A stretch of DNA of 64,000 nucleotides from Nitrospiraceae bacterium (GTDB lineage: Bacteria > Nitrospirota > Thermodesulfovibrionia > Thermodesulfovibrionales > UBA6898), in contig CP070737.1 in assembly GCA_020347665.1 (NCBI GenBank), positions 1,393,858 to 1,457,857 on the forward strand, in the 5' to 3' direction. Both the position numbers and the translations under genes were made by a program. The number at the start of each line of letters is the position of its first letter. Position 1 is the stretch's first letter. Below the pieces are notes generated by a model. The model saw only the letters and a program-made list of their open reading frames with translations, was not told the DNA's origin and made no database searches. Shown piece after piece: positions 3,221 through 25,664 of this stretch.

Positions 3221-3972
3221 ATTCCTAACATTATAACAACTGCAAGTATAAACCGGTAATAGACAAAAAGGTTTAAGGGATATTTTTTGAAGAAGCTGAG
3301 GAGGAATTTAATCGCAGCAAAACCGGTAATGCCTGATACGAGAAATCCAGCAATAAAAATGGAGATATTCTGATCAGCGGCATCTGACAGTATGTCCCCG
3401 GCGTGGAGGATCAGTGCTCCTGCGATGACCGGTGTAGCGAGCAGAAAGGAAAACCGCGCTGATTCATCGCGCTCGAGTCCCCTGAACAGACCGGCAGAAA
3501 TCGTAATACCTGAGCGGGAGACGCCCGGTATAAGCGCAACTGCCTGCATACAACCAATTAAGAGAACATCGGTGACGGAAAGATCGTCAAGCTTCTTATG
3601 TCTAAATGTTTTTTCAGAAATCAGCATGACCATTCCTATGACAACGAGCGCTATGACAATAATCAGCGGACTTCTCAGAGCATATTCGACAAGATCGTTA
3701 AACAGATAGCCGGCTGCCCCGGCCGGCACAGTAGCAATTAAAATAAGCCATAACAATTTTGTATTTTTTGATACCATGGTTAACCAGTCTTTCCAGAAAC
3801 AGGTAATGAGCGCGAACAATGTTCCTGCATGGAGTGCAATATCAAAGGTGAGTGTGTCGACTGCGCCTTTCCAGTTGAAAAACCAAGGGAATAATATGAG
3901 ATGAGCCGTGCTGCTGACAGGAAAAAACTCTGTTAATCCCTGTACGATTCCAAGTATGATCGCCTCGAACAT
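3205..3972 (-). CDS. uppP: Undecaprenyl-diphosphatase UppP (BacA)
   Basis: Integral membrane enzyme that dephosphorylates undecaprenyl pyrophosphate so the lipid carrier can be reused for peptidoglycan; it also gives bacitracin tolerance. The 255-residue length is normal. Both family signatures are present: GLTEFFPVSSTAHL near residues 13-26 and the PGVSRSGITI loop in the middle. About eight hydrophobic segments are visible. The ATG at 3972 has no SD but sits 6 bases after TATAAT on the minus strand, so its transcript may be leaderless. First gene of uppP-ftsK-lolA. Confidence 0.95.
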   Translation of the reverse strand: MFEAIILGIVQGLTEFFPVSSTAHLILFPWFFNWKGAVDTLTFDIALHAGTLFALITCFWKDWLTMVSKNTKLLWLILIATVPAGAAGYLFNDLVEYALRSPLIIVIALVVIGMVMLISEKTFRHKKLDDLSVTDVLLIGCMQAVALIPGVSRSGITISAGLFRGLERDESARFSFLLATPVIAGALILHAGDILSDAADQNISIFIAGFLVSGITGFAAIKFLLSFFKKYPLNLFVYYRFILAVVIMLGIWLKR

Positions 3973-7961: not shown

Positions 7962-7991
7962 TTGACAGTGTCTGACATGGAATGCTAGAAT
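7962..7991 (+). promoter_or_regulatory. cooC promoter, leaderless geometry
   Basis: TTGACA (7962-7967), an 18-base spacer and TAGAAT (7986-7991). The ATG of cooC at 7997 begins 5 bases after the -10, where transcription would start. No SD sequence can be placed. Confidence 0.65.
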
Positions 7992-7996
7992 GCAGT

Positions 7997-8779
7997 ATGA
8001 AAATTGCTGTCACCGGGAAGGGCGGCGTTGGAAAGACAACACTTGCATCAGTATTAAGCCATCTTTTTGCTGTGGATGGAAAGAAAGTAATTTCAGTTGA
8101 TGCTGATCCGGATGCAAACTTGGCTTCAGCGCTCGGTATTTCCCGTGAGGAAGCTGAAAAAATAAGACCGATCGCTGATCTGAGCGACCTGATCGAAGAA
8201 CGAACCGGAGCAAAGCCAGGAAGCATGGGCGGTGTGTTCAAAATCAATCCCAAGGTAGATGATCTGCCGGAGCATGTTGGTTTCCCCGTTAACGGTATTA
8301 CCCTCCTTGTTATGGGTAAGTCAAAGGCAGCGTCATCAGGCTGTTACTGTCCTGAAAATATATTCCTCAGACGGTTGCTCAAGCATCTTGTTATAGAGAG
8401 AAATGAAGTCGTTATCGTTGATATGGAGGCAGGCATAGAACATTTGACGAGGGGAACAACTGATGCGGTTGACGCGTTTATTGTTGTTGTCGAGCCGGGG
8501 CAGAGAAGCATGCTTACAGCAGAAACCGTCAGAGACCTCGCACAGCAGCTCGGTATCAGAAGGGTTTTTGTTGTCGCGAACAAGGTGAGAAATGCTGAAG
8601 ACCTGGCATTTATTCAAAAGGGAATTCAGAACATGGAATTTCTTGGCCACATATCGTATGACAATGCGGTAACAGAAGCTGATATCAAGGGTGTTGCACC
8701 GTTTCGTTATTCTCCCAAAACGGTCGAAGAAATAAAAACGATAAAGACCGAGCTGGAAAAAATTCTCTATGCCGGATGA
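7997..8779 (+). CDS. cooC: CooC-type nickel-insertion ATPase (CO dehydrogenase maturation factor)
   Basis: SIMIBI-class P-loop ATPase thought to load nickel into the C-cluster of CO dehydrogenase. The 260 residues begin MKIAVTGKGGVGKTT, a deviant Walker A with the signature lysine; DADPDANLASALG follows. The CxC metal motif at the dimer interface is seen in SGCYCPENIFLRRLL, and VDMEAGIEHLTRGTT is the switch/Walker B region. The start at 7997 is preferred to 7982, which adds five residues before the conserved opening and falls in the promoter. fthC overlaps by 11 bases, linking nickel/CO and folate C1 functions. No CODH gene is in the window. A second copy is at 24897. Confidence 0.88.
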   Translation: MKIAVTGKGGVGKTTLASVLSHLFAVDGKKVISVDADPDANLASALGISREEAEKIRPIADLSDLIEERTGAKPGSMGGVFKINPKVDDLPEHVGFPVNGITLLVMGKSKAASSGCYCPENIFLRRLLKHLVIERNEVVIVDMEAGIEHLTRGTTDAVDAFIVVVEPGQRSMLTAETVRDLAQQLGIRRVFVVANKVRNAEDLAFIQKGIQNMEFLGHISYDNAVTEADIKGVAPFRYSPKTVEEIKTIKTELEKILYAG

Positions 8780-10593: not shown

Positions 10594-11178
10594 TTGACAG
10601 ACACTATCGTTCAGATGAATCTCAAGAAAATCGAAAAAGGCGTCAGGCTGATTCTTGAAGGCGTTGGAGAGGATCCTGACAGACCGGGTATAAAAGATAC
10701 TCCGAAACGGGTTGCCCGGATGTATGAGGAGATTTTTTCTGGTATCGAAACCCCAACCGAGGAAATCCTTGGGCATATTGAGGGAGAAAGTCATGAAGAA
10801 CTGGTTCTTCTCAAAGATGTCCCTTTTTATTCAGTATGCGAGCATCACCTGCTCCCGTTTATCGGAAAGGCTCACGTTGCTTATGTTCCCGGCAAAGGTA
10901 AGATTGCAGGCATCAGCGAACTTGCAAAGGCACTTGAAGTTCTTGCCAAACGCCCGCAGGTTCAGGAACGGCTAACTGCCCAACTTGCTGATCTTATCAT
11001 GGCGAGATTAAAGCCGAAGGGTGCCATGGTAATTATTGACGCTGAGCACCTCTGTCTTTCTATGAGAGGTATCAAAAAGCCCGGATCGCGAACTGTTACC
11101 TCTGCAGTGCGTGGTATCTTCAGAACAAAGGAATCGACCCGCCACGAATTGCTTGAATTGATTAAGCCCAAAGAATAA
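10594..11178 (+). CDS. folE: GTP cyclohydrolase I
   Basis: Converts GTP to 7,8-dihydroneopterin triphosphate, the first step to folate. The zinc ligands are visible as [10 protein letters not shown] (C82, H84, H85) and the later cysteine in [29 protein letters not shown] is the N-terminal signature. The TTG at 10594 gives 194 residues; an ATG at 10615 would also leave the whole conserved domain, and neither has an SD. folD follows by 17 bases with its own SD, so the two are probably cotranscribed as folate supply for the C1 pathway. Confidence 0.93.
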
Positions 11179-11195: not shown

Positions 11196-12107
11196 ATGTC
11201 TGCCAAAATTATCAGTGGCAAAGAAATTGCTGCCCAAATTAGAGATGAGCTTAAGAAGGATGTTGCAGAGTTAAAAGATAAGCATGGAGTAGTACCCGGA
11301 CTCGTTACTATTCTTGTCGGCCAAAATCCCGCATCGATCAGCTATGTTACCGGCAAACAGAAGACTGCTCATGAACTTGGGTTCCACTCAATCCAGGATG
11401 ATCAGCCTGAGGATATTTCAGAGGATGCCCTTCTTGATCTCATTGAAAAATACAATAAGGATCCCAAAATACACGGGATTCTTGTCCAGCTTCCTCTTCC
11501 CAAGCATATCGACGAGAAAAAGGTTTTGAACGCCATTGATCCTGACAAGGATGTTGACGGGTTTCATCCGGTCAATGTCGGGCGTCTGATGATAGGTGGA
11601 GACGAGGTTAAGTTCTTGCCGTGCACACCTGCCGGCATTCAGGAGCTGATTGTACGTTCCGGTTATGAAACCTCTGGTGCCGAGGTTGTTGTGGTGGGCC
11701 GTTCGAATATCGTGGGTAAACCGATTGCCAACATCATGCTCCAGAAAGGCGCTGGAGCGAATGCAACGGTAACGGTTGTGCATACCCGCACAAAGGACCT
11801 TGAAGCTCACTGTAAGCGGGCTGACATTCTTATTGTTGCTGCCGGGGTACCACAGCTCGTGAAACCGGAATGGATCAAGCCCGGTTCATGTGTTATCGAT
11901 GTCGGTGTAAACCGTGTGGGGGAAAAGATCAGCGAAAAAACCGGAAAGAAGATAGCTATCCTTAAAGGGGATGTTGATTTTGACGCAGCCAAAGAGATTG
12001 CCGGTGCGATAACCCCTGTGCCGGGCGGTGTCGGACCGATGACCATTACCATGCTCATGAAGAACACAGTGAAATCTGCAAGGATAGCGGCAGGGGAGGG
12101 CTCTTGA
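11196..12107 (+). CDS. folD: Bifunctional methylene-THF dehydrogenase / methenyl-THF cyclohydrolase
   Basis: Interconverts methylene-, methenyl- and 10-formyl-THF with NAD(P)+, two steps of the methyl branch of the Wood-Ljungdahl pathway. The 303 residues contain SYVTGKQKTAHELG with the catalytic lysine, QLPLPKHIDEKKVL, DGFHPVNVG, the Rossmann motif VVGRSNIVGKP and the closing PVPGGVGPMT. An AAAGGAGG SD lies 6 bases before the ATG. It follows folE closely. A repeat-rich gap separates it from the reductase unit at 12486. Confidence 0.96.
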   Translation: MSAKIISGKEIAAQIRDELKKDVAELKDKHGVVPGLVTILVGQNPASISYVTGKQKTAHELGFHSIQDDQPEDISEDALLDLIEKYNKDPKIHGILVQLPLPKHIDEKKVLNAIDPDKDVDGFHPVNVGRLMIGGDEVKFLPCTPAGIQELIVRSGYETSGAEVVVVGRSNIVGKPIANIMLQKGAGANATVTVVHTRTKDLEAHCKRADILIVAAGVPQLVKPEWIKPGSCVIDVGVNRVGEKISEKTGKKIAILKGDVDFDAAKEIAGAITPVPGGVGPMTITMLMKNTVKSARIAAGEGS

Positions 12108-12470: not shown

Positions 12471-12485
12471 ATGAAGGAAAGATCA

Positions 12486-14585
12486 ATGTCAGATGGTTCC
12501 ATAAAAGAGAAAAACAAACCCCATAAGGAATGGGCTGCCGAATTAAAGGAACAAAGGCCTTATTCTCCCTGTCGCGCAGCCTGTCCGGTCAACACGGATG
12601 TTCAGGCATACGTGGGGCTTATCGCTCAGGGACGATATGCCGAGGCTCTTGAGGTTATTCGATCGGTAAACCCGATAGCGTCCGTCTGTTCAGTAATCTG
12701 TCACCATCCCTGCGAACAGGCCTGCCGGCGCTGTGCTGTAGATGAACCGTTGGCAGTCAGGCATCTGAAGCGGTTTGCATTGGAAAAGGCTGCGGACTAT
12801 CGTAGAAACAAGCGAAGGCTCGTCAAGCAGACCAGAGACAAAAAAATCGCGATCATCGGCTCAGGTCCTTCAGGCCTGACAGCGGCAAATGATCTTGCTG
12901 ATCTTGGTTATGGTGTGACCATATACGAACGTCACCCCGTACTTGGCGGCATGCTCTCTTCTGCGATTCCGACGTACCGCCTGCCGAGGGAAACCCTTCA
13001 GGAAGACATAGATGATATCATTGCCAAGGGCGTTGAAGCCAGGACAAACTGCGAGATCGGCAGGGATATCACCATGAATGAAATAATAGACAAGCATGAC
13101 GCAATTTTGATTGCTGTCGGGCTTTCGGAAAGCCGGGCATTGAATATCCCGGGAGCAGATGTCCCGGGTGTTCTTCTTGCGATTCCCTTTCTCGAGGATG
13201 CTGCGTTCCAGAAAAAGATCGAACTCGGCAGCAAGGTCCTCGTAATTGGCGGCGGTAATGTTGCAATCGACGTTGCACGGACAGCAAAAAGGCTTGGTGC
13301 GGGGTATGTCGAGATGGTATGTCTCGAAAGCGCTGAGGAGATGCCGGCATGGAAGTGGGAAGTGGACGAGGCTGTTGAAGAAGACATTGCCATTTCTCAC
13401 CGGTGGGGACCAAAAGCAGTACGTCGTGATAATGGCAGAATCACAGGGCTTGAGGTGGTAAAGGTTTTGTCTGTCTTCGACTCAAACGGACGTTTCAGTC
13501 CGACCTTTGATAATGATACAACATCTTTCATCGAGGCTGATACGGTGATTATCACGATTGGCCAGATGACGAACCTGTCGTTCCTTGAAGACAGCCAGGT
13601 TCAGGTGGATGAGAGGGGACGTGTAGTCTGGGATCCTGAAACGCATATGAGCAGTCTCAGGGGTGTTTTTGTCTCAGGTGAGGTGGTGACCGGTCCGGGA
13701 TCAGCGATCCAGGCTGTTGCGAGCGGACACCGGTCAGCCATGGCAATGCACGTATACCTTGAGGGGCATGAGATCGAAGGGGTTCTTCCGACATACGAAA
13801 AAGAGCCCATTGCTCAGCTTCCCGGGGACGTTGCAGACGTGATTCACCGGGAACCGAGAATGAAGGTGGAACACCTCCCGCCCGAAACCCGATGCAGCTC
13901 ATTTATGCAGTTCGAATTTGGCTATGATGAGGAATCAGCGCTTAAAGAGGCAGGACGTTGCCGAGGGTGCGGTGGCGGTGCGGTAGTTGATACGGACAAG
14001 TGCATGGCATGTCTCACCTGCCAGAGGATATGCCCGTATGGAGCGCCATTAGTCACATCAGTGTCCGAAATCCGGTCTGAATACTGCCAGGCCTGCGGAC
14101 TCTGCGCGCCGGAGTGTCCGGGTCAGGCTATCAGCATGGTGAGTTATGACGTTGGTGAGGTTCGCTCGAATATGTCATCGCTCGTCGGCTCGGTTGATCC
14201 AAAACGGCAGGAGCCGGCGGTGGTTGCATTAATCTGCTCTCACCATGTGGGTATCAAGGGCTTTGAACTTCCTGATAACGTACGCTCTGTACCAATTCAT
14301 TGTACGAGTCGTGTCGATATTATTGATCTCTTAAAGGCATTTGAATGCGGAGCCGATGGGGTGGCTGTAGTGCGCTGTCCCGCCGGGGCCTGTAAATATA
14401 AGGACATTGAAACCCGCGTTTCCGCCCGCGTACGACGAACAAAAGAGCTCATACATATGCTCGGCATGGACGCAGGCCGCATTGAGCTTTTGCAGGCGGT
14501 GTCTGATGATGGTAATCCTTATGCCGTGGTCTGTGCTGACTTTTCCGAAAAGGTCAAACAGATAGTGCTCAGAACGGGCAGATAA
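12486..14585 (+). CDS. GltD-like NAD(P)H:FAD oxidoreductase fused to ferredoxin and MvhD domains, electron module for MetV/MetF
   Basis: A 699-residue fusion. Residues about 25-100 form the Cys-rich N-terminal domain of GltD/dihydropyrimidine dehydrogenase (SPCRAACPVNTD, CHHPCEQACRRC). About 120-430 is an FAD/NAD(P)H oxidoreductase with two Rossmann motifs (GSGPSGLTAA and VIGGGNVAIDVA). About 492-551 carries two 4Fe-4S ferredoxin motifs. The last 120 residues are an MvhD/FlpD domain with five cysteines (about 584, 606, 621, 631, 636). It is followed by metV after 36 bases, so it probably feeds electrons from NAD(P)H or ferredoxin to methylene-THF reductase. ATG 12486 has AAGGA 7 bases upstream; ATG 12471 is an alternative. 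Domain calls are firm, the exact electron donor is inferred. Confidence 0.85.
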   Translation: MSDGSIKEKNKPHKEWAAELKEQRPYSPCRAACPVNTDVQAYVGLIAQGRYAEALEVIRSVNPIASVCSVICHHPCEQACRRCAVDEPLAVRHLKRFALEKAADYRRNKRRLVKQTRDKKIAIIGSGPSGLTAANDLADLGYGVTIYERHPVLGGMLSSAIPTYRLPRETLQEDIDDIIAKGVEARTNCEIGRDITMNEIIDKHDAILIAVGLSESRALNIPGADVPGVLLAIPFLEDAAFQKKIELGSKVLVIGGGNVAIDVARTAKRLGAGYVEMVCLESAEEMPAWKWEVDEAVEEDIAISHRWGPKAVRRDNGRITGLEVVKVLSVFDSNGRFSPTFDNDTTSFIEADTVIITIGQMTNLSFLEDSQVQVDERGRVVWDPETHMSSLRGVFVSGEVVTGPGSAIQAVASGHRSAMAMHVYLEGHEIEGVLPTYEKEPIAQLPGDVADVIHREPRMKVEHLPPETRCSSFMQFEFGYDEESALKEAGRCRGCGGGAVVDTDKCMACLTCQRICPYGAPLVTSVSEIRSEYCQACGLCAPECPGQAISMVSYDVGEVRSNMSSLVGSVDPKRQEPAVVALICSHHVGIKGFELPDNVRSVPIHCTSRVDIIDLLKAFECGADGVAVVRCPAGACKYKDIETRVSARVRRTKELIHMLGMDAGRIELLQAVSDDGNPYAVVCADFSEKVKQIVLRTGR

Positions 14586-14621
14586 CTGTTTCAGATTAAT
14601 GATATAAAGGAGTAATGAATT

Positions 14622-15341
14622 ATGATTGTTGGTTCACAAAAGCCTATTGACGAAATCTGGGAGATGGTTAAGGACTTTAAAAAGATTCTGGTCTTTGGCT
14701 GTAACACATGCGTTGCCATCTGCCATGCAGGCGGGGACAAAGAGGCTGAAACTATTGCCACGCTTCTCAGGATGAGAGCATCCCAGGAAGGTGTAGATAT
14801 GCAGGTTGATCATACCTCTGTTATGCGCCACTGCGAGCCGGAGTATTTTGATCCGGTTATGGACGATGTAAAGAAGTATGACCTCATTCTTTCGACAGCC
14901 TGTGGGGTCGGGGTCAACTTCCTCTCAGATCGAACCGGGATAATCCCGGTCTATCCGGGCATCAATACCTCTTTTTACGGGGCTGTGCCTGAGCCTGGTG
15001 TCTTCGAAGAGCTCTGCGCTGGATGTGGTGACTGTATCCTGCACATGACCGGCGGCATTTGTCCTATTGCACGGTGTTCCAAAACACTCATGAATGGACC
15101 CTGCGGTGGAACAAAAGAAGGCAAGTGCGAGGTGAGTGATGAGATGGACTGCGCATGGTACCTTATTGTGGAGCGAATGAAGATGCTCGGCACGCTCGAA
15201 AAACTATCTGAAGTCCTGCCTCCGCGCGACTGGTCAACGTCACGGGATGGCGGTCCGCGGCGAGTGTCAATGGAACACATCAGAGCGTATGAGGAGAAGG
15301 AAGGGGAAAAGACTGAGACGGCAGGAGGGAAAAAAGAATGA
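14622..15341 (+). CDS. metV: MetV, zinc/Fe-S subunit of methylene-THF reductase
   Basis: Small partner of MetF in acetogen-type methylene-THF reductases, equivalent to the MTHFR C-terminal domain family. Of its 239 residues, the N-terminal half has the VFGCNTCVAICHAGGD motif and the HCEPEYFDP loop. The C-terminal half is cysteine-rich (CAGCGDC, GGICPIARCSKT, NGPCGGTKEGKCEV, DCAWY), as expected for metal/cluster binding and contact with the electron donor. An AAAGGAG lies upstream of the ATG. The metF start overlaps its stop by 4 bases, indicating translational coupling and a stoichiometric complex. Confidence 0.9.
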   Translation: MIVGSQKPIDEIWEMVKDFKKILVFGCNTCVAICHAGGDKEAETIATLLRMRASQEGVDMQVDHTSVMRHCEPEYFDPVMDDVKKYDLILSTACGVGVNFLSDRTGIIPVYPGINTSFYGAVPEPGVFEELCAGCGDCILHMTGGICPIARCSKTLMNGPCGGTKEGKCEVSDEMDCAWYLIVERMKMLGTLEKLSEVLPPRDWSTSRDGGPRRVSMEHIRAYEEKEGEKTETAGGKKE

Positions 15342-16318
15342 AGAGTGGAAGCAATCTTGAAAGAGTAATCCTGAGCGGACAGCCTGCCGTTACTGCGGAG
15401 CTGGGACCGCCCATGAGTGCGGATGGTCATGAGGTTGTGAAGAAAGCTCAGTTACTGAAAGGCAACTGTGATGCCGCGAATGTGACGGATTGCCAGACTG
15501 CGGTTGTCCGCATATCGAGTATTGCTGCTGCTGCCATCGCCTTTCAGCAGGGGCTTGAGCCGGTCATGCAGATGACCTGCCGTGACCGAAACCGGATCGC
15601 CATACAGGCAGATCTTCTTGGTGCCGCTGCGATGGGGCTAAAAAACTGTCTCTGCATTGCTGGTGATCACCAGTCATTCAGTGCTGCAGGCAGGCTGAAG
15701 GGACATCCCGGTGCCAAGAATGTCTATGATGTTGATACCTGCCAGCTTGTCAGCATTATGAAGAAAATGCGTGACAACGGCCTGCAGGAAGGCGGTGACA
15801 CACTGGAAATTGCGCCAAAGTTTTTTATCGGGGCTTCCTGGACGCCCATGGGAGATCCCATTGATTTCCGACCAGTCAATCTTATGAAGAAGGTAAATGC
15901 CGGTGCTGACTTTATTCAGACGCAGGGTATTTATGATATTGAGGGTTTTCGTTCGCAGATGGAAAAAATCCGGAACATGGGGCTCCATGAGCGTACCGCG
16001 ATCCTCGGCGGCATTATTGTTCCAAGAAGCGGCATGATGCTCAAGTACATGGATTCCTCTGTTGCTGGCGTTTCAGTCCCAAAATCCCTTATTGACCGCA
16101 TGATGAAGGCAAAAGCCGCGGCAGGTGATGACAAGAAGAAGGCACGGCAACTGCAGGAGGGGGAAGGGAAGAAGATTACTGTCGAGCTGATTCATCAGGT
16201 ACTTGAGACGCCGGGTGTAAGGGGTGTGCATATTCAGGCCATAGAGTGGGAATCAGCAATTGCGGATATCGTAAAGGCTGCCGGACTGTATCCAAGACCA
16301 AACATACCTGCTGAATAG
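15338..16318 (+). CDS. metF: Methylene-THF reductase catalytic subunit MetF
   Basis: Reduces 5,10-methylene-THF to 5-methyl-THF, the methyl donor for the corrinoid protein and acetyl-CoA synthase, or for methionine. The 326-residue TIM-barrel protein shows the N-terminal TAELGPPMSADG strand, DAANVTDCQ, the MQMTCRDRNRIAIQADLLGA block (folate/FAD site), AGDHQSF, GADFIQTQGIYD and LGGIIVPRSG. ATGA overlap with metV. Because MetV and the FAD/Fe-S fusion protein are encoded with it, it is likely a complex-type, not a free NADH-dependent, reductase. Confidence 0.93.
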   Translation: MKSGSNLERVILSGQPAVTAELGPPMSADGHEVVKKAQLLKGNCDAANVTDCQTAVVRISSIAAAAIAFQQGLEPVMQMTCRDRNRIAIQADLLGAAAMGLKNCLCIAGDHQSFSAAGRLKGHPGAKNVYDVDTCQLVSIMKKMRDNGLQEGGDTLEIAPKFFIGASWTPMGDPIDFRPVNLMKKVNAGADFIQTQGIYDIEGFRSQMEKIRNMGLHERTAILGGIIVPRSGMMLKYMDSSVAGVSVPKSLIDRMMKAKAAAGDDKKKARQLQEGEGKKITVELIHQVLETPGVRGVHIQAIEWESAIADIVKAAGLYPRPNIPAE

Positions 16319-24896: not shown

Positions 24897-25664
24897 GTGG
24901 CGCATGTGATCGCGGTAGCAGGAAAGGGTGGTACCGGTAAAACAAGTATCGCCGGTTTAACCATTCGATATCTTAAAGAAAAAAGGCAGAAGCCGGTTCT
25001 TGCGGTTGATGCGGACAGCAACGCGTGCCTCCATGAAGCACTGGGCGTGGAAGTGCATGCTACTATAGGTCATCTACGCGAAGACTCGCTTGAGACAATA
25101 CGAAGCGGCACGGACAGACCGGGAGGCATGTCAACTGAACAGCTCTTTGACTATCAGGTACAGCAATCGCTAATTGAGGCTACGGGATTTGACCTTATGG
25201 TTATGGGCAGACCGGAGGGACCGGGCTGTTACTGTGCTGCAAATAATATCATCAGGAAATATGCTGATAAGCTTTCAGATACGTATTCCTATGTAGTTAT
25301 AGATAATGAGGCAGGTATGGAACACCTCAGCAGGAGAACAACCCATTCGGTCAATCTTCTGCTGATAATAAGTGACCCGACCGTCCGAGGGATAAAAACC
25401 GCAAAAAGGATTACAGACCTTGTGTATGAACTGAATCTTGAAGTCGATAAAAGCATTCTCGTTATAAATCGCATCGCCGGTGATGAGGGACTGGAACTGA
25501 AAAAGCTTGCTGAAGAGCTTGGTCTCACGGTTGCCGGAATGGTTCCGCAGGACGATACGATTTTTAAGAACGACCTTGAGGGAAAATCGGTTCTGGAACT
25601 GCCTTCGGATGCTCCTGCAGTTCAGGCGGTCTTTGGCATACTCGATACATCATCTATTCCCTGA
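24897..25664 (+). CDS. cooC: CooC-type nickel-insertion ATPase, second copy
   Basis: 255-residue MinD-like ATPase with GKGGTGKTSIAGL Walker A, AVDADSNACLHEALG, the metal CxC in GPGCYCAANNIIRK and VIDNEAGMEHLSRRTT. It is clearly a paralogue of the product at 7997 but divergent. CooC paralogues can serve different nickel enzymes (CODH versus acetyl-CoA synthase, as AcsF). GTG start with GGGAGGTG SD. It is in an operon with the thymidylate synthase-like gene and converges on galT. Confidence 0.88.
   Translation: MAHVIAVAGKGGTGKTSIAGLTIRYLKEKRQKPVLAVDADSNACLHEALGVEVHATIGHLREDSLETIRSGTDRPGGMSTEQLFDYQVQQSLIEATGFDLMVMGRPEGPGCYCAANNIIRKYADKLSDTYSYVVIDNEAGMEHLSRRTTHSVNLLLIISDPTVRGIKTAKRITDLVYELNLEVDKSILVINRIAGDEGLELKKLAEELGLTVAGMVPQDDTIFKNDLEGKSVLELPSDAPAVQAVFGILDTSSIP

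Follow-up and report, generated by a model that had tools for sequence, protein, structure and literature searches.

The 64,000-nucleotide stretch analysed here (the window; contig CP070737.1 of a Nitrospiraceae bacterium, positions 1,393,858 to 1,457,857) encodes a single-chain GltD-ferredoxin-MvhD fusion directly in front of metV and metF, the genes of a methylene-tetrahydrofolate (methylene-THF) reductase, an enzyme that forms the methyl group in CO2 fixation. We hold with moderate confidence that an NADH-linked reductase of three polypeptides (fusion, MetV and MetF) is encoded here, with the fusion as its dedicated electron-input subunit; this version of the enzyme appears to be widespread and not to have been described before. 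The features that carry this reading are the following:

12486..14585, + strand: GltD-ferredoxin-MvhD fusion, 699 residues (homologue alignment; AlphaFold2 model with pLDDT 87.2 and pTM 0.74)
12564..12794, + strand: N-terminal Fer4_20 region (PF14691) with invariant C29, C33, C72, C76 and C80 in 699-residue numbering
12768..12770, + strand: codon of Lys95, equivalent to StnC K170, a ligand of the cluster proximal to flavin adenine dinucleotide (FAD), and to a Glu in bifurcating NfnB (PMC10482914)
12843..13727, + strand: region with R165 (codon 12978-12980), equivalent to StnC R239 and NfnB R201 (Pfam, structure match, alignment)
13317..13328, + strand: V278-C-L-E281 motif at the site of the NADPH-binding YRR (alignment)
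13980..14138, + strand: 2x[4Fe-4S] ferredoxin domain, C506, C509, C512, C516 and C534, C537, C540, C544 (Pfam, invariant columns)
14202..14582, + strand: MvhD/FlpD domain, [2Fe-2S] expected at C584, C606, C631 and C636
14622..15341, + strand: metV, Fe-S/zinc subunit of methylene-THF reductase (DUF5981, 3e-36)
15338..16318, + strand: metF, catalytic flavoprotein subunit (MTHFR, 8e-34)

The open reading frame (ORF) of the fusion runs from an upstream ATG at 12471 to 14585 (704 residues); the ATG at 12486, with AAGGAAAG just 5' of it, gives the 699-residue form that aligns with the starts of the homologues. Pfam places Fer4_20 at 32-108, Pyr_redox_2 at 125-419, Fer4 from 505 onwards and FlpD/MvhD at 593-698 (704-residue numbering), and the domain scores of the fusion, MetV and MetF all lie far above chance. 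The FlpD match reaches 81.3 bits against a cut-off of 22.3, and since the Foldseek/VIA match lists were dominated by the GltD domain, the MvhD part was assessed by sequence, where it matches MvhD chains of the PDB (7bkb_F, E=1.5e-14; 5odc_D, 2e-10). The cluster cysteines, including the four of the MvhD domain, are invariant across 20 homologues down to 36% identity. From the ligand roles described for StnC (PMC10482914), two [4Fe-4S] clusters are predicted for the GltD module, held by the Fer4_20 cysteines, K95 and the pair C492/C495, whose aligned counterpart in NfnB is the N-terminal RCLQC. The chain as a whole would thus probably carry four [4Fe-4S] clusters, two in the GltD module and two in the ferredoxin domain, and one [2Fe-2S] cluster in MvhD. 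The sequence-only reading from which this work started had described a GltD-type NAD(P)H oxidoreductase, ferredoxin and MvhD in one 699-residue chain, directly before metV-metF with an ATGA overlap; the Pfam order, the invariant cysteines and the sequence itself (fusion-metV spacing 40 bp, metF start overlapping the metV stop at 15338-15341) bear this out, and its count of two 4Fe-4S motifs is corrected by the cysteine pattern.

Orthologues of the fusion, taken at 52% identity or more, occur in 32 of 395 genomes of the host phylum. Two of these loci are cut off by the end of a contig; in 29 of the 30 informative genomes metV lies downstream on the same strand, at no more than 0.81 kb in 27 of them and at 1.2 kb and 3.1 kb in one each. 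A second set of fusions, 36-38% identical and from family f10, is likewise located directly 5' of metV. The search of Chloroflexota covered Dehalococcoidia (entry L087, 294 genomes) and Anaerolineae (entry L086, 298 genomes), and outside these two classes the spread beyond the host phylum is a lower bound; strong and nearly always full-length matches were found in 26 and 8 genomes, respectively, with metV and/or metF adjoining the fusion in 30 of 32 loci, in the order fusion-metV-metF or metV-metF-fusion. Both phyla combined, metV or metF stands beside the fusion at 59 of 62 loci, and a conserved third gene was seen in neither phylum. The fusion thus does not usually occur away from metVF. The compact three-subunit reductase that had been proposed from the sequence is supported, with the fusion as an input protein of NAD(P)H type dedicated to it. 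Small ORFs are inserted between the fusion and metV at L048 (8993-12042) and L053 (6508-7672), of 161 and 105 residues, the former looking PIN-like by its start and being common to two genomes.

The position of the fusion gene is informative in itself. Four types of methylene-THF reductase have been listed, in two reviews (2021 and 2022) and once more in 2026, namely MetF, MetVF, MetVF-RnfC2 and MetVF-HdrCBA-MvhD (PMC8760232; PMC9430772; and, in April 2026, PMC13040438). In the window, folD (11196..12107, + strand) lies upstream and frames a slot of the form folD-[module]-metV-metF. The arrangement folD-hdrC-hdrB-hdrA-mvhD-metV-metF is found in 24 genomes (some clusters being cut by contig ends), which belong partly to the same families as the genomes with the fusion and none of which has a fusion of this class. 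There, hdrA encodes 1016 or 1481 residues, mvhD is a separate gene, and the MetV proteins are 62-78% identical to MetV of the window, a single MetV being detected in most genomes. In the MetV tree, the clade of the module-bearing proteins is separate from that of the module-free ones, whose genes in most cases come right after folD (support 99/99), and two changes suffice between the fusion and the Hdr module. Because the fusion occupies the exact slot of hdrC-hdrB-hdrA-mvhD within single families, it replaces the four-gene type IV input module, and in close relatives it appears, from this genomic evidence, to be a one-gene functional replacement of HdrCBA-MvhD.

Further arrangements occur in front of metV-metF. 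A lone MvhD gene (139-143 residues where read) stands directly before a divergent metV-metF pair at L191 (3290-3706), L193 (505-933), L172 (3639-4067) and L176 (approximately 3310-3543), and these four genomes also hold a full Hdr-type cluster. At L198 (2489-5686; genome G305), folD and genes assigned by Pfam as NuoG-like, NuoE-like and NuoF-like directly precede metV-metF, apparently as a further NADH input module. With the fusion, the Hdr module, lone MvhD and NuoEFG-like proteins all found before metVF, MetVF behaves like a core to which different inputs can be fitted.

In the proposed mechanism, NADH rather than NADPH would reduce the FAD of the GltD module, and single electrons would then travel from the [4Fe-4S] clusters of this module to the C-terminal ferredoxin domain and on to the [2Fe-2S] cluster of MvhD. 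The MvhD domain would dock on MetV, whose [4Fe-4S] clusters would hand the electrons to the flavin of MetF, where methylene-THF would be reduced to methyl-THF. The fusion enzyme would in effect act like the NADH-linked MetVF-RnfC2, built of unrelated parts. As to the nucleotide, the solved NADP(H)-dependent relatives that were compared read YRR at the site of the 2'-phosphate, whereas every fusion of the window lineage reads CLE with the acidic E281. In Rossmann folds, an acidic residue at the 2'-phosphate site favours NADH. Since E281 takes the place of YRR, NADH is predicted to be preferred over NADPH by the window fusion; the fusions of the f10 type keep YRR, and NADPH is predicted for that lineage. 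The NAD(P)H-type donor of the sequence-only reading is in this way retained and narrowed towards NADH. With a potential of -200 mV for methylene-THF/methyl-THF (PMC9430772) and of approximately -280 mV for NADH in cells (PMC10482914), a linear transfer would run downhill.

Flavin-based bifurcation had been suggested as a possibility. In such a scheme the GltD FAD would split the electron pair of NAD(P)H, sending one electron via the [2Fe-2S] cluster of MvhD to MetVF and the other via the 4Fe-4S chain to ferredoxin, or the reverse for the oxidation of methyl-THF, in a layout resembling NfnAB, where MetF would take the part of NfnA. Consistent with that, bifurcating NfnB has the same fold as the fusion model (Z 38) and the same arginine (R165), a [2Fe-2S] cluster and a ferredoxin-like cluster pair would flank the flavin much as in NfnAB, and the replaced Hdr module is itself thought to bifurcate (PMC9430772, PMC8760232). 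The closest structural matches of the AlphaFold2 model are nevertheless StnC and NfnA of NfnABC (residues 24-559; Z 44-48, rmsd (root-mean-square deviation) 2.0-2.3 Å over 473-475 residues, 36-37% identity). The GltD FAD of StnC is non-bifurcating, its proximal cluster has K170 where bifurcating NfnB has a glutamate, and bifurcation by StnABC is located in a separate NuoF-like subunit (PMC10482914). K95 is kept in every sequence of either fusion lineage, and this StnC-type lysine, in place of the NfnB glutamate, speaks for an NAD(P)H dehydrogenase that works linearly and does not bifurcate; R165 is shared by StnC and NfnB types and does not discriminate between them. NfnA-like and NuoF-like flavin genes were not found in the fusion-metVF operon, nor was the TrxR-like flavin core of HdrA, the HdrA2/HdrA models matching the fusion at its tail (502-698) only. 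Bifurcation is so far unsupported by these data, and we regard it as rather unlikely. Another way to read the fusion is that its MvhD domain serves for docking and ties MetVF to a separately encoded partner, such as a membrane quinone or hydrogenase system, with the GltD module only tuning or feeding the chain. The proposal for Sporomusa ovata is of this kind, as 75% of its MvhD is membrane-bound and is thought to tether MetVF (PMC9430772), and the bare MvhD genes before metV-metF in four genomes fit it too; the fusion, however, owns an NAD(P)H site, no conserved third gene was seen with it in two phyla, and we take this reading to be quite improbable.

It has to be noted that several observations weigh against the dedicated, linear NADH-linked input. 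In Moorella, NADH oxidation by the type IV complex does not lead to transfer of the electrons to methylene-THF (PMC8760232), and sharing its slot is therefore no proof of a linear reaction. The difference between Lys and Glu at the cluster concerns one residue, with R165 kept as in NfnB, and the GxGxxA motif, which has been read as a cue for NADP (PMC12054007), is present as GGGNVA in YRR and CLE proteins alike. Genome G231 (L030/L078; 92% complete) holds the sole fusion of its class without a detectable metV, among unrelated neighbour genes. This locus, together with GltD-ferredoxin proteins that lack MvhD and occur in other contexts, would suit a general NADH:ferredoxin-type oxidoreductase that merely sits beside metVF, which we consider very improbable in view of the adjacency, which holds across two phyla, for either gene order and for both GltD lineages, and of the fact that the fusion fills the slot of a known MetVF input module. 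As regards the pathway context, CdhC (acetyl-CoA synthase) was not found in the window genome, G000, although 20 of 20 further members of the family have it, and matches to CdhD are weak and partial. At the 91% completeness of this 2.25-Mb single contig, either loss or an assembly gap would account for this, and in the source organism the reaction may run in either direction.

The two types of fusion do not share one GltD history. In trees of the GltD domain (made by a quick method, with the Shimodaira-Hasegawa-like approximate likelihood ratio test, SH-aLRT, as the only branch support), CLE and YRR fusions fall into different clades, and a single clade of all fusions is rejected by the approximately unbiased (AU) test with p 0.0025 (p 0.037 in an earlier set). 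On the GltD domain test, two GltD lineages have been joined to ferredoxin-MvhD beside metVF. For the ferredoxin-MvhD half, a short alignment, the comparison of a single with a double fusion origin gave p 0.126, and a later swap of GltD onto an old fusion would fit, too. At least four genomes hold a CLE and a YRR fusion on different contigs: G396 (L248/L258), G794 (L250/L255), G706 (L249/L256) and G770 (L251/L257). Both copies adjoin metV in G794 and G770; in G396 the contig stops at the CLE copy, and in G706 a distance of 1.3 kb separates the CLE copy from the metV that follows. A tentative, wider picture would be that of MetVF as a plug-in core for which a one-gene module arose twice from different GltD lineages, in one case for NADH and in the other for NADPH, with some Chloroflexota running two reductases with different nucleotides, one possibly oxidative and one reductive, and with one or both perhaps bifurcating via a single polypeptide; this is possible, but doubtful.

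A GltD-MvhD fusion subunit figures in none of the four listed reductase types (PMC8760232, PMC9430772, PMC13040438), and no description of GltD joined directly to MvhD beside metVF was found in the literature searched, subscription papers and preprints being outside that search. With type IV (Moorella thermoacetica, Sporomusa ovata) the fusion enzyme has MetV, MetF, the MvhD domain and the chromosomal slot in common; it differs in having no HdrB, HdrC or HdrA flavin core (no hdrB or hdrC ORF lies between folD and the fusion or between the fusion and metV) and in uniting GltD, ferredoxin and MvhD in one 699-residue chain. Type III, MetVF-RnfC2 of Acetobacterium woodii, likewise has three polypeptides, one of them an extra one that is expected to deliver electrons from NADH to MetVF. 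That subunit is RnfC-like, whereas the fusion combines a GltD/FAD part with ferredoxin and MvhD domains, and a profile search found no RnfC domain in the fusion, MetV or MetF. Type II, MetVF without a dedicated input, is not matched either, given the linkage to metV in 29 of 30 genomes and the separate clade of module-free MetVs. StnC of StnABC and NfnA of NfnABC share with the fusion the GltD module with the following cluster region and the Lys ligand at the FAD-proximal cluster. In the fusion, MvhD replaces their NuoG-like domain and NuoEF-like bifurcating partners (the former is absent from the chain and the latter from the operon), and CLE replaces YRR. NfnB of NfnAB has the GltD fold and the conserved Arg near FAD, but the fusion has Lys instead of the Glu ligand and no NfnA partner, and the CxxC element that is N-terminal in NfnB is found on the C-terminal side (C492/C495), as in StnC and NfnA. 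HdrA2 and type Ia HdrA have a similar C-terminal ferredoxin-MvhD part (positions 570-771 of the HdrA2 hidden Markov model on fusion residues 502-698). Related combinations have been described, with HdrL (HdrA-GltD) followed by MvhD (PMC2702500), HdrA with an inserted GltD and HdrA-MvhD fusions (PMC12054007), and a GltD domain within the 1487 residues of Moorella HdrA (PMC9430772), but all of them keep the HdrA core, whereas in the fusion GltD is joined straight to the ferredoxin-MvhD tail.

Which electron donor MetVF-type reductases use in the cell is still an open point in the energetics of acetogens and autotrophs (PMC8760232), and the Moorella reaction was still called not fully understood in 2026 (PMC13040438). 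One 699-residue protein in place of HdrCBA-MvhD on the same MetVF core amounts to a natural experiment, in which the donor question becomes testable with three genes and with neither a membrane partner nor a large HdrA. The split between CLE and YRR makes an explicit prediction of NADH versus NADPH, for which the genomes with both fusions offer an internal control.

Some observations concern the surroundings of the operon. The gap of 363 bp between folD and the fusion is not regarded as a dispersed repeat, since the palindrome that it contains is single-copy in the genome. Promoter and terminator scans gave no signal above shuffled sequence, and a phmmer search of the MetV protein gave no PDB match. 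A conserved neighbour, named by its sequence and conserved position, lies further upstream:

10594..11178, + strand: folE (GTP cyclohydrolase I)

Inspection of the window genome revealed FTHFS together with a formate dehydrogenase/NuoEF-like cluster, an Rnf-like cluster with an AcsE-like methyltransferase at its side, a Sat-Apr-Qmo-like cluster and CooC-like genes. Two CooC/MinD-like P-loop ATPases, of the CO dehydrogenase maturation kind, are encoded in the window at 7982-8779 and 24897-25664, the first within the conserved folate gene block. A separate MvhD gene of the same genome (contig C1, 1542910-1543278; L001, L070) has one in-frame TGA, a probable selenocysteine codon, and lies behind a 932-residue HdrA-like ORF, with NuoEFG-like ORFs downstream.

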